The notes beneath the pieces were generated by a model. The model did not search any database, had not been told where the DNA came from, and saw only the letters and a list, made by a program, of their open reading frames with translations. A stretch of 64,000 bases of DNA from an uncultured Latescibacterota bacterium (GTDB taxonomy: Bacteria > Latescibacterota > UBA2968): assembly GCA_951812755.1 (NCBI GenBank), contig OX638329.1, positions 5,481,563 to 5,545,562 of the forward strand, read 5' to 3'. Within the stretch, counting starts at the first letter, position 1. Every line of letters starts with the position of its first letter. Made by a program: the position numbers and the translations under genes. Below are positions 45,418 to 49,722 of this stretch, one piece after another.

Positions 45418-45651
45418 AGAAAAAAAAAGTGGGAACCCCGAAACAGCCCAAACGTGAACACAATGTAGATAAACCAACCCCCAAAATCAAGCGCAAACCC
45501 CGTGACATTTTGAACGCGATTTAGTATATTACAGCGGTAAAAGGTAAAATCCACTAAGGACACGAAGAAACACTAAGGGATCGTAGAAGCGATTCCCTTG
45601 TAGTCGCCCGTTAAATATTAAGACGTACCTACCCTTCTTGTATCTTAAAAC

Positions 45652-45674
45652 GGGCGAGGCATGCCTCGCCCCTA
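45652..45674. repeat. Intergenic hairpin repeat, family 2
   Basis: GGGCGAGGCATGCCTCGCCC with trailing CTA, a perfect 20-base palindrome identical in core to the copy at 38325. Upstream, 45546-45575 contains aaaatccactaaggacacga, the complement of a word at 9258-9277, and 45583-45609 a weaker repeat (GGATCGTAGAAGCGATTCCC). The palindrome lies 25 bases before the start of the selenoprotein candidate. Confidence 0.8.
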
Positions 45675-45698
45675 TATCTCACCTTCTGGAGGAACACC

Positions 45699-47003
45699 AT
45701 GAAACACCTGTGTATTTTCTCTCTCGCCCTATTTTTATGCTTATGCACAACGGCTTTTGCCCAGCCCAATCTTGGGGAAAAAGTAGGCGAATTTCAACTC
45801 CAGGCCACCGATGGAAGGTCTTACGGCGTCAATCATTCGACCAACACGGTCTCAGTCCTGTTTTTTGTCGGCCACAACTGAGGAACTTGCATAGGGGCGG
45901 GTCCCGCCTTTGAGACTCAGGTTCACCAACGCAACAAAGACAAAACCGGCGTACAGATCCTCACACTCGACAGATACGATGGCAACCGCGCCCAGGCAAC
46001 ATCCTATCTGACACAATCCAGAGTAACGACGCCCATGCTCACAAATGCCTCTGGCGTCTCCAGAAATCTCGGCACTCGCAACGAAGACATCCTCGTCGTT
46101 GACCAGGGAGGCATCTTGCGCCTCAGAACCACGGCAATCGCCACTGGCTCTCATGACCTGATCAACGCACAAATTGACGCACTTCTCAACAAAACGCCTG
46201 TTATTTCTCTATTTCCAAACGAGCTTTACTTTGGCAGAACCCTTGAAGTGGGGCAGTCCAAGACCGTAGAATTTAAGATCGAAAACACCGGCGCAGGTCC
46301 CCTCGAAATCACCGGATACTCGGCTCCTGAAGGCATCACAATGGAGCCATCTACACTGACCATAGCTCCCGGCGAAAGCAAAACCGTACAATTCACCCTG
46401 ACGCCAACACAAGCCGGCACATTGTCGGGCAAAATCACCCTCCAACACGGCGAACAAAGTATTGGCCCCCTGGAAATACCCGTACTCGACCTCACCATCG
46501 AAGCGCCCCAACTCCCGGTCATTTCACTGGTTCAGGAAAACTTGAGTCTGGGTGAAATTGAAGTAGGTCAGGAAATCACCACAACATTCACCATCACAAA
46601 TACTGGCGCAGGTCCCCTCACCATCACAGACATACAATCCGACATCGCGGGCATTGCACTTTCAGAAACCCAATTAACAGTGCCACCCGGCCAATCTCAG
46701 GACATCACAGTGACTTTCAGTCCGCCAGCCGAAGGTCCAATTACCGGTACCATCGACGTATTCTCAGACGACCCGGAAAAAGCCTCAATCAGCCTGACCA
46801 TCACCGGATCAGCCATCTTCATCCCCGCTGATCCACGCACCGACTTCGATGGTTCGCGCACCATTGACTTTTCGGACTTTCTCCTATTTGTAAGTGCCTT
46901 TGGCACCGCCAATACAACCTTCGACCTCGACGGATCCGGCACTGTTGACTTTCCCGACTTTCTCATATTTGTCTCGAACTTTGGGAAAACAATCAATTCC
47001 TGA
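45699..47003 (+). CDS. Secreted thioredoxin-like protein with in-frame TGA (candidate selenoprotein), two ASH-type Ig domains and dockerin-like EF-hands
   Basis: The frame runs 435 codons if the TGA at 45879-45881 (residue 61) is read as selenocysteine. A signal peptide (MKHLCIFSLALFLCLCTTAF, then AQ) precedes a redoxin fold: GEFQLQATDGRSYGV, VSVLFFVGHN, then U-GTC (U61, C64), IGAGPAFETQ and GVQILTLDRYDG, VVDQGGILRL. This puts TGA at the first Cys of a CxxC motif. Two ASH/choice-of-anchor-D domains follow (VEFKIENTGAGPLEI; TTFTITNTGAGPLTI), then two dockerin-like EF-hand repeats (DFDGSRTIDFSDFLLFVSAF, DLDGSGTVDFPDFLIFVSNF). A SECIS-like hairpin follows the TGA. The start has TGGAGG. The alternative is a pseudogene or sequencing error. 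Confidence 0.8.
45893..45911 (+). promoter_or_regulatory. SECIS-like hairpin after the in-frame TGA
   Basis: AGGGGCGG (45893-45900) pairs with CCGCCTTT (45904-45911), leaving a 3-base loop GTC with G first; the lower two pairs next to the A-T are G-U. Nineteen bases separate the TGA from the loop. Bacterial SECIS elements lie inside the coding region just after UGA, with a loop G near the start and about 16-37 bases of spacing, which this meets. The hairpin also resembles arms of repeat family 2. Confidence 0.6.
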
Positions 47004-47008
47004 AAAAC

Positions 47009-47033
47009 GGGCGGGTTTAAAACCCGCCCCTAC
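47009..47033. repeat. Intergenic hairpin repeat, family 2 (variant)
   Basis: GGGCGGGTTTAAAACCCGCC followed by CCTAC, a perfect palindrome 5 bases after the selenoprotein candidate's stop. It could act as that gene's terminator, although it has no T run after it. Same outer sequence (CGGGC...GCCCCTAC) as the other family 2 copies, but with a different core. Confidence 0.78.
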
Positions 47034-47068: not shown

Positions 47069-47809
47069 ATGCGGGATCATCGATGTTCACCCGTGTCTCT
47101 TTTCATGTCCCACCGCCAAACGCTCATCACCCCATTCAAACGCATCCTCGAAATAGCGGATCGCGACCATCTCTATTTGCCCTTTCAACGCGACAGCAAA
47201 TTGCGGGCAAAACACTTTCCAGGCGCAGGGTCTAAAATCGGGCGAAAAAAACTCATTGACGCATATCTCCAGGAATTTGGCGACACAAACCCCGATGAAA
47301 AATTACTCCAACACGCCACCTATCCCTGGATTCACGGATACGACGCCAGCCTCACGCATATTCTCGACGACCTTCGAAAACATCAAAAAAAAGCACCCGC
47401 CGAACTTTCTGCGGACCGAAGACGCGCACTCGAAAAGAAATTTACCCGCACGGGTGCCGAAGAAATCGCGGCATTTTGGAGCGTATATGCCGCTGCCGAC
47501 AACAGCTATCGCAAAAGCGTCATAGAAATGCTCGCCCGCGTCAAACCTCCCACCCCTCCCACCATTCAGCCAACACAACCTCCGCAACAACCCACAATCC
47601 ACGATTCTCCTCAGACCGAACCCGCCACACAGTCGGGATATGCCTTGATGGGCGCGCTTATCTTCTTTGTCCCCACCCTTATATTTGCTATAATACAATA
47701 CTGGCGACTCCCACACGAAAGCCACTATATCGCCCTATCAATCGCCGGATTTTTTGGACTAATCACCCTCATCTATCTCATCGACTACTTGCGTAAACGC
47801 AACATTTGA
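47069..47809 (+). CDS. Hypothetical protein with two C-terminal membrane helices
   Basis: 246 residues, family not recognised. The first ~160 residues are charged and helical (LIDAYLQEFGDTNPDEKLLQ, LSADRRRALEKKFTRTGAEE), followed by a Pro/Gln/Thr-rich linker (PPTPPTIQPTQPPQQPTI) and two hydrophobic helices (GYALMGALIFFVPTLIFAII; HYIALSIAGFFGLITLIYLI), ending in a basic tail. This is the layout of a cytoplasmic domain tethered to the inner membrane. Start uncertain: 47069, or Met13 at 47105. It abuts the redoxin fusion gene, with a 4-base overlap of its stop and a TTG. Confidence 0.6.
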   Translation: MRDHRCSPVSLFMSHRQTLITPFKRILEIADRDHLYLPFQRDSKLRAKHFPGAGSKIGRKKLIDAYLQEFGDTNPDEKLLQHATYPWIHGYDASLTHILDDLRKHQKKAPAELSADRRRALEKKFTRTGAEEIAAFWSVYAAADNSYRKSVIEMLARVKPPTPPTIQPTQPPQQPTIHDSPQTEPATQSGYALMGALIFFVPTLIFAIIQYWRLPHESHYIALSIAGFFGLITLIYLIDYLRKRNI

Positions 47810-47814
47810 TCACA

Positions 47815-49722
47815 ATGAACAAAGATACCTACCCCCGGCCCCTTCCTGAGAGGAAGGGGAGAAAACCTACCAGCTCCCAGCCCCCAGCCCCCCAGCCCCG
47901 CCTCTCGCCTTTTATCTGGGTCAATCTGAATCATCTGCGGATAACGATCTCCACCTTCCTCTTTCTCACCCTCCCGCTTCGCCTCTGGGCAGCCCCTCTC
48001 CAGATCGGCGACACCCTCAACGATTTTACCCTTTCCGACCTCAACGGATCGCCCATTACCCTCAATCAATTACCTTATAATCGCGCACTCGTCATCATCT
48101 TCAGTTCCGTCGTCTGCCCCGCCTCGCTAAAATACGATATTCACCGCGCAAAAATTCACCAACAGTATGCCCCCAAAGGTGTGCGCCTGATATCTGTAAA
48201 TGCCAATTTTAATGAAACAAACCAGGACATCGAAGAACACTACATCCAAAACCCCGTACCCTTCACTGTCCTGCGCGACCCGCACAACAAACTCGCCGAT
48301 CATCTCGGCGCGACACACACCCCCCACGCCTTTCTCTTTGACGCCCAACGCCGCCTGCGCTACAAGGGCGAAATCGACAACGGCTGGGGCATCCCCGAAG
48401 ACACGACCTCGCGCGGTTTGTGGGACGCCCTGGATGCACTGCTCGCCAACCGCGAAATCGTCACCACCAACCTGCCCAGTTTTGGCTGTGAAATCAGACG
48501 CACACCCCGGCCAACAACCGCAGCTGGCGCTTCGACCCCAACATTTTATCGCGATATCCTGCCCCTGCTCCAAAATCGCTGTCAGAATTGTCATCGCCCC
48601 GGCGGCATCGGTCGCGTGCCCTTTTTCGACTACACAGAAGTACTCGCATGGGCCTATCAGATGCGCGACTCCATCGAAGCCCGCATCATGCCACCCTGGA
48701 AAGCGCGCCCCGAATACGGCGACTTTAAAAATTCCCGCAGCCTCACAGACGCCGAAATCCACACCTTCGCGCAATGGGTCAACGGCGGCATGCCAGAGGG
48801 CAATCCCGCAGACCGCCCCGAACCCATCGCATTTTCCAAAAGCTGGACCCTGGGCACGCCCGACCTGACCCTTGAACCCGAAGCACCCTATCCACTCGAA
48901 GCCTCGGGCCGCGATGAATACCGCTGCTTTGTCTTGCCCACAAAACAGGACACAGGCAACTACGTATCGGCCATCGAAGTACTGCCTGGAGAACGCGAAG
49001 TCGTCCACCACGTCAGCGTGTACATCGATATCTCTGGCAAAGCGCGCCTGCAACAGGAAAACGCGCCCTCGCCTGGATACCCTTGCTTTGGCGGCATTGG
49101 CGTACCCATCTACGAATCCCTGGGCGGTTGGGCACCCGGCAACACCCCCTTTGTCCTTCCAGATGGCACAGGCCGCGATTTACCGCCCAACAGCGACATC
49201 ATACTTCAGATCCACTACCACAAAATTGGTCGCGCCGTAAAAGATCACTCTCGACTGGGAATCTACTTTGCAAAAAAACCCGTACAAAAACAGCTCCGCG
49301 AAGAAGTCATCAACAGCCGCTTGCTCTTCATTCCACCCAACATCAAACAACACAGAGTAACCGGCGCAATCACCATCACCCGCGACCAGCACCTGCTCGG
49401 CATCTTGCCCCACATGCACCTGCTCGGTACAGAAATGAAAATAACCGCGACCTATCCCGACGGCACACACAAACCCTTAATATGGGTCAAGCCCTGGGAC
49501 TTCAACTGGCAAGAGACCTACGTGTACAAAACACCTATCGCACTCCCGCGCGGCACCCGCATCGCGCTCGAAGCCTTTTACGACAACTCTGCCGACAACC
49601 CCCGAAACCCCAACAATCCGCCCAGGCTGGTGCGATGGGGCGAAAAATCAACCGATGAAATGTGTACCGCATTTCTCTATGTCACGCACGATGATGAAAA
49701 CCTAACAGCAGGTAAGAGGTGA
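47815..49722 (+). CDS. Redoxin / cytochrome c / copper type II monooxygenase-like fusion
   Basis: 635 residues, exported. After an odd N-terminal stretch comes a hydrophobic segment (ISTFLFLTLPLRLWAAP), then a redoxin domain (GDTLNDFTLSDLNGSPITLN, VIIFSSVVCPASLKYDI), a single-heme cytochrome domain (LLQNRCQNCHRPGGIGRVPF), and a C-terminal PHM/DBH-like copper domain: VVHHVSVY (first copper site), QIHYH and PHMHLLG with the late Met in DEMCTAFLYV (second site). Such fusions are known in planctomycete-like genomes, annotated as redoxin or ascorbate-dependent monooxygenase, with unknown substrate. The first ~35 codons look like repeat DNA, so the start is doubtful. Probably cotranscribed with the TPR gene. 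Confidence 0.85.
   Translation: MNKDTYPRPLPERKGRKPTSSQPPAPQPRLSPFIWVNLNHLRITISTFLFLTLPLRLWAAPLQIGDTLNDFTLSDLNGSPITLNQLPYNRALVIIFSSVVCPASLKYDIHRAKIHQQYAPKGVRLISVNANFNETNQDIEEHYIQNPVPFTVLRDPHNKLADHLGATHTPHAFLFDAQRRLRYKGEIDNGWGIPEDTTSRGLWDALDALLANREIVTTNLPSFGCEIRRTPRPTTAAGASTPTFYRDILPLLQNRCQNCHRPGGIGRVPFFDYTEVLAWAYQMRDSIEARIMPPWKARPEYGDFKNSRSLTDAEIHTFAQWVNGGMPEGNPADRPEPIAFSKSWTLGTPDLTLEPEAPYPLEASGRDEYRCFVLPTKQDTGNYVSAIEVLPGEREVVHHVSVYIDISGKARLQQENAPSPGYPCFGGIGVPIYESLGGWAPGNTPFVLPDGTGRDLPPNSDIILQIHYHKIGRAVKDHSRLGIYFAKKPVQKQLREEVINSRLLFIPPNIKQHRVTGAITITRDQHLLGILPHMHLLGTEMKITATYPDGTHKPLIWVKPWDFNWQETYVYKTPIALPRGTRIALEAFYDNSADNPRNPNNPPRLVRWGEKSTDEMCTAFLYVTHDDENLTAGKR

Follow-up and report, generated by a model that had tools for sequence, protein, structure and literature searches.

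Reviews of prokaryotic selenoproteins list UxxC members of the AhpC-TSA and redoxin families (PF00578, PF08534), in which selenocysteine (Sec, U) precedes a cysteine, and also a DUF1573 selenoprotein with a UGC motif (PMC9312934, PMC13188914). The Prx-like and 'Redoxin family protein' selenoproteins resemble the protein analysed here in their redoxin fold, their UxxC motif and the use of Sec for the first Cys of CxxC, but in the parts of these reviews available to us they are given no ASH, dockerin-like or T9SS-type tail (PMC9312934, PMC13188914). The DUF1573 selenoprotein OS_HP2 (NF041425, motif UGC) has the same type of Ig domain (DUF1573/ASH); its Sec motif, however, is listed for the DUF1573 protein itself, whereas here Sec lies in a separate redoxin domain, and NF041425 scores 59.9 on our ASH region, below its cut-off of 100. 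The periplasmic oxidoreductases TlpA, ResA and DsbE are alike in fold (TM about 0.8), in the position of CxxC and in having a signal peptide; unlike them, the present protein carries a multi-domain tail, lacks proline at the cis-Pro position and has Sec where they have the first Cys. The ResA model NF002854 gives the heads 36-52 bits, below its cut-off of 170, and none of the heads tested against NCBIfam reached a selenoprotein cut-off. A cluster of redoxin, TlpA and DUF6029 genes in Flavobacteriaceae (L060, L121) encodes a homologous head of the same clade with the same two neighbours and, in L060, the conserved barrel Cys pair, but its redoxin has Cys for Sec and is short, without an ASH tail.

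An earlier, sequence-only reading of this DNA knew of no described architecture of this kind, and nothing like it appears in the portions of the selenoprotein reviews that were accessible; a text search of a 2026 review found no such fused, multi-domain, secreted or dockerin-bearing architecture. The open literature (subscription journals being outside its scope) yielded neither such an architecture nor a relevant link between Latescibacterota or Latescibacteria and selenoproteins. UxxC redoxin selenoproteins are known; what the accessible review text does not contain is the architecture, its phylum-wide expansion and the partnership with a barrel.

The locus lies in a 64,000-nucleotide stretch (the window) of the genome of an uncultured Latescibacterota bacterium, assembled as a single contig of 6.53 Mb. 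Frame translation gives an ATG, 60 codons, a TGA, 373 codons and a terminal TGA (Table 1); the frame is otherwise open, which confirms that two in-phase frames are split by a single TGA. With this TGA read as U the protein is MKHLCIFSLALFLCLCTTAFAQ...VLFFVGHN-U-GTCIGAGPAFE..., so the joint FFVGHN-U-GTCIGAGP is as the earlier reading had it and the motif is U61-G-T-C64. A script listing, in which homology was not part of the scoring, returned seven TGA-split UxxC/CxxU patterns with long flanks in the window, this one among them. We consider it very probable that this gene encodes a genuine exported selenoprotein whose TGA is decoded as Sec, because the genome holds the Sec machinery, TGA recurs site-specifically 54 times, Cys homologues fall within the clade and hairpins exceed those of shuffled sequences.

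Table 1. Features of the selenoprotein gene (window positions) and of DUF6029 barrel genes (positions within the named loci).
Feature	Position	Strand	Basis or remark
Putative selenoprotein gene, 434 aa with U61	45699-47003	+	Terminal stop TGA 47001-47003
TGA read as selenocysteine 61, U-G-T-C, N-end of helix alpha1	45879-45881	+	54 aligned TGA; Flavobacteriaceae Cys homologues; Sec machinery
SECIS-like hairpin AGGGGCGG-GUC-CCGCCUUU, G first in loop	45893-45911	+	Folding; shuffles
Signal-peptide-like N-terminus MKHLCIFSLALFLCLCTTAFAQ	45699-45764	+	Read from sequence directly
Thioredoxin/redoxin-fold head, residues about 24-167	45768-46200	+	AhpC-TSA; PDB profiles; Foldseek
ASH/HYDIN-type Ig domain 1, residues about 170-268	46206-46503	+	PF22544; PF15780; NF012200 choice_anch_D; model
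ASH/HYDIN-type Ig domain 2, residues about 272-373	46512-46817	+	Pfam; NCBIfam; model; Foldseek
C-terminal dockerin-like EF-hand motif pair, residues about 380-434	46836-47000	+	EF-hand_1 and dockerin_GC, both sub-cut-off
DUF6029 barrel, RRxGxACxxGxCY in last loop	L110 3103-4635		Next to TlpA
DUF6029 barrel, RRxGxACxxGxCY in last loop	L072 1727-3271		Next to TlpA
DUF6029 barrel, RRxGxACxxGxCY in last loop	L060 3913-5358		Next to TlpA

Pfam matches and an AlphaFold model (mean pLDDT 88) bear out the claim that one frame holds a signal-peptide-like N-terminus, a redoxin (at about residues 28-165 by these matches), two ASH Ig-like domains and an EF-hand tail; in the model U61 opens helix alpha1 of a redoxin fold, and two beta-sandwiches and a pair of EF-hands make up the rest. 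The head scores 25.6 bits with Pfam AhpC-TSA (PF00578), against a gathering score of 26 and 58.3 for a Cys homologue. Its profile matches in the PDB are 2ls5, 3kcm and ResA, and Foldseek gives TM scores, normalised to the target, of 0.77 to 2ls5 and 0.80 to the DsbE protein 3gl3. Two of the invariant columns in the head alignment are U61 and C64. No proline is found at the cis-Pro position in that alignment, nor a P-T before the VVD..G strand, a feature that sets the head apart from TlpA/ResA and may alter substrate handling. The ASH/HYDIN Ig models are well exceeded (PF22544, 91.4 against a cut-off of 25.5; NF012200, choice-of-anchor D, 104.6 against 45), and by Foldseek these domains resemble ciliary HYDIN-type proteins and the CEP192 SPD-2 domain. 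The tail scores 24.2 bits with EF-hand_1, just under the cut-off of 25.4, and 23.1 with dockerin_GC (NF041540), below 29, which a paralogue passes with 34.0. About 110 similar EF-hand dockerin-like stretches occur in the genome, along with four weak matches above cut-off to cohesin PF00963 (best 38.8 bits). The surface anchoring proposed by the earlier reading has indirect support from the exchangeable export tails and an outer-membrane partner; the role of the dockerin-like domain may be in export or assembly instead.

A check of the assembled genome for selABCD had been proposed, and all components were found: selA (580 bits) beside selB (385 bits), selD (365 bits; G000:C1:5934980-5935903, L020) and, immediately downstream of selD, tRNA-Sec (73 bits, anticodon TCA). 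From its own in-frame TGA (CGG-U-ASK), SelD is predicted to be a selenoprotein itself. Across the phylum, tRNA-Sec occurs in 32 of the 34 genomes with a U-redoxin, as against 10 of the 30 without one (P = 2e-7 phylum-wide, 0.04 within the class), values that are inflated because related genomes are not independent. Just upstream of selD (about 5.936 Mb, G000:C1, L020, reverse strand) is a TlpA-like ORF with an in-frame TGA, FFMWASW-U-GCRAQLPGW; its top NCBIfam match is WAxxUGC_long, with a score of 144.7 bits where the cut-off is 300, and it is likely to be a further selenoprotein.

Using the three heads of this genome as queries against 64 Latescibacterota genomes and mapping the aligned site, we found an in-frame TGA at exactly this site 54 times, in 46 distinct DNA sequences and 34 genomes. 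The concern that raw reads might lack the TGA is thereby answered, since read errors would not place the same codon at 54 sites in 34 separate assemblies. Two of the three copies are tandem paralogues at 5.759-5.761 Mb, with TGA at the same site (GWS-U-GSC and GYG-U-PSC) and the same type of Ig plus EF-hand tail; a T-box leader (RF00230, 103.7 bits) lies near them (L015 1104-1356, - strand). Near-identical homologues are present in MAGs titled Candidatus Latescibacterota and in one labelled Gemmatimonadota. A search of plasmids gave no homologue. Homologues had been expected to keep Cys or Sec at the position of U61, and they do. Intact Cys homologues occur in two Flavobacteriaceae genomes (GYS-C-PTC in L060, GNE-C-PSC in L121) and nest within the clade of all U proteins (FastTree support 0.996), apart from ordinary TlpA-like proteins. 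The sole Cys copy found in the phylum is broken (G027 L099, G027:C34:80500-84500): it reads G-TAA-D-C-T-G-C, with the in-frame TAA two codons before the Cys and the ASH part in another frame.

The hairpin predicted to follow the TGA is present, but not 19 bases after it as proposed: its stem starts 12 nt and its loop 20 nt past the TGA. GGU(C) stands 19-22 nt past UGA in all three paralogues of the genome, the same spacing and loop as in Escherichia coli fdhF. Folding of the 42-mer, a suggested check, gives a weak signal against dinucleotide shuffles (z = -0.94); against synonymous-codon shuffles the energy of the hairpin has P = 0.004 and its stem length P = 0.07. Taken by itself the window hairpin is only moderately improbable, and the proof is the family-wide evidence. 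RNAalifold found no common structure across all U sites, and we therefore used a null in which the codons from +1 to +42 were replaced by synonymous ones drawn at random according to codon frequencies in the family itself (500 shuffles). A stem of at least 5 bp with G as one of the first two bases of its loop was found at 80% of U sites, whereas shuffles averaged 15% and never exceeded 33%, and the mean folding energy from +9 to +32 was -9.1 kcal/mol, compared with -4.7 kcal/mol in shuffles (sd 0.31). At Cys sites the energy shift was smaller (-2.9 against -1.9) and the frequency of stems (15% against 6%) lay inside the shuffle range. As judged from these sequences, selection for a SECIS is shown at U sites, without a clear equivalent at Cys sites. 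The covariance that had been sought is visible in one subgroup, where seven pairs are 90% standard, a share that drops to 33-47% if the pairing is shifted by as many as 3 columns, and where paired changes occur from G-C to U-A in two sequences and from C-G to A-U in one; it does not extend to a single consensus because stem register and position vary among subgroups. An Rfam scan of the selenoprotein gene matched no family.

If the TGA were an ordinary stop, the locus would encode a peptide of 60 residues, and the ORF behind it would either go untranslated or have a start of its own; or the locus would be a pseudogene. The code is standard and TGA does act as a stop for most genes here, among them the selenoprotein gene at its own end, but the intact orthologues have no other stop at the site in 54 TGAs from 34 assemblies, the frame is conserved on both sides, and the Sec machinery and SECIS selection contradict termination, all of which makes this explanation highly improbable. 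The truly decayed copy, L099, looks quite unlike these genes, with a TAA and frame changes. A stop by chance or in a pseudogene was ruled out by the 54 aligned TGA sites. Readthrough or reassignment of TGA as another residue, such as Trp, would leave the frame equally open, and yet TGA normally terminates genes in this genome, as in the selenoprotein gene itself, the replacement seen in Flavobacteriaceae is Cys and not Trp, the Sec system is complete and no strong hairpin signal accompanies the Cys sites; we give it next to no weight. Decoding as Sec, the reading we prefer, would fall to SelB and tRNA-Sec, acting at the hairpin that closely follows the UGA.

The same head is borne on different tails across the phylum. 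In the taxonomic order to which the window's genome belongs (families f1 and f2) it precedes a run of ASH domains, numbering from 1 to about 11, and then an EF-hand dockerin-like pair. Many heads of family f4 carry instead a Por_Secre_tail / type IX type A sorting domain, which scores above its cut-off in the f4 member that was tested, and some f4 members have no recognisable tail. Because one head type bears such exchangeable export tails, the protein is suggested to work outside the cell body. One gene in G039 (L045 82-1998, -) joins a U-redoxin head to TSGLPDYDYFFDD, a YSNPGYDLLG stretch and then a sorting-type tail; named by eye, its middle domain looks like a serine beta-lactamase.

The gene adjoins genes for a TlpA-like protein (WCKPC) and a DUF6029 protein in f2, in most f4 genomes and in G027 of f1, and the Flavobacteriaceae Cys homologue is flanked by the same two neighbours. 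Of the 34 genomes with a U-redoxin, 32 have a DUF6029 barrel gene, and of the remaining 30 only 4 do (P = 2e-11 for the phylum, 3e-6 within the class, both inflated by the same relatedness of genomes). A C-x4-C near the C-terminus is found in every barrel copy read to its end, L060 included, and supplies the sole cysteines in many of them; the loop peptide with the Cys pair is RRGGTACTSGTCY. The barrel model has about 24 strands (pTM 0.72, mean pLDDT 74), with the Cys pair between the last two long strands, and resembles outer-membrane barrels in Foldseek. In the usual topology of outer-membrane barrels such a last loop faces outside, and the DUF6029 barrel presumably follows it, with its last loop extracellular. 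Our search found no published function for this barrel, the literature match concerning polysaccharide-export barrels. In the window's genus the TlpA-barrel pair lies elsewhere (G000:1.323 Mb, against 5.53 Mb for the window) with no U-redoxin beside it; because the gene left the TlpA-barrel operon there, we infer a partnership in this genus by inheritance.

The protein would be a thiol/selenol-disulfide exchange enzyme beyond the inner membrane, with a TlpA/ResA-like head in which selenocysteine U61 replaces the attacking thiol and Cys64 is the resolving residue. U61 would attack a disulfide or other oxidised substrate, C64 would resolve the selenenylsulfide and a partner in the TlpA-barrel pathway would recycle the head, which would be borne on the ASH Ig-like stalk, the dockerin-like domain probably helping to export the protein or to attach or assemble it on the outside of the cell. 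The head most likely acts at or past the outer membrane. Whether the redoxin shares an outer-membrane pathway with the periplasmic TlpA (WCKPC) and the DUF6029 barrel is, in our estimate, evenly balanced. The protein might instead contain Sec and yet be a TlpA-type reductase of the periplasm or a peroxide-reducing Prx-like enzyme, unlinked to barrel or surface; we hold this possible, at less than even chances. It would account for the likeness of the head to ResA/TlpA/AhpC-TSA and for the gene's place away from the barrel in the window's genus, and the available review text counts UxxC Prx-like proteins among the selenoprotein families (PMC9312934, PMC13188914). It accords less well with a cis-Pro position lacking proline, with long Ig stalks and T9SS-type or dockerin-like tails, which are unusual for a periplasmic TlpA, and with the operon shared with the barrel in most other families and in Flavobacteriaceae. 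The outer-membrane pathway could go as far as a selenol/thiol relay across that membrane, from periplasmic TlpA to barrel Cys pair to surface-displayed Sec redoxin or the reverse, carrying reducing or oxidising equivalents. We think such a relay unlikely; if true, it would be selenium-based disulfide chemistry outside the cell envelope.

Exported multi-domain bacterial selenoproteins have received little attention, and an annotation pipeline that ends every gene at TGA would break up most members of this family. Its spread through the phylum (34 of 64 genomes) points to a selenium-dependent extracytoplasmic redox system, and the link to the barrel is a first functional lead for DUF6029, including in Bacteroidota.

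Two features of the surrounding DNA may be added. Palindrome-like GC-rich elements, perhaps REP-like, flank the gene (ACGGGCGAGGCATGCCTCGCCCCTA, ACGGGCGGGTTTAAAACCCGCCCCTA at window 45650-45675 and 47006-47033). The adjacent gene (window 47806-49719) encodes a redoxin domain without CxxC (VVCPASLKY) joined to copper type II monooxygenase domains.
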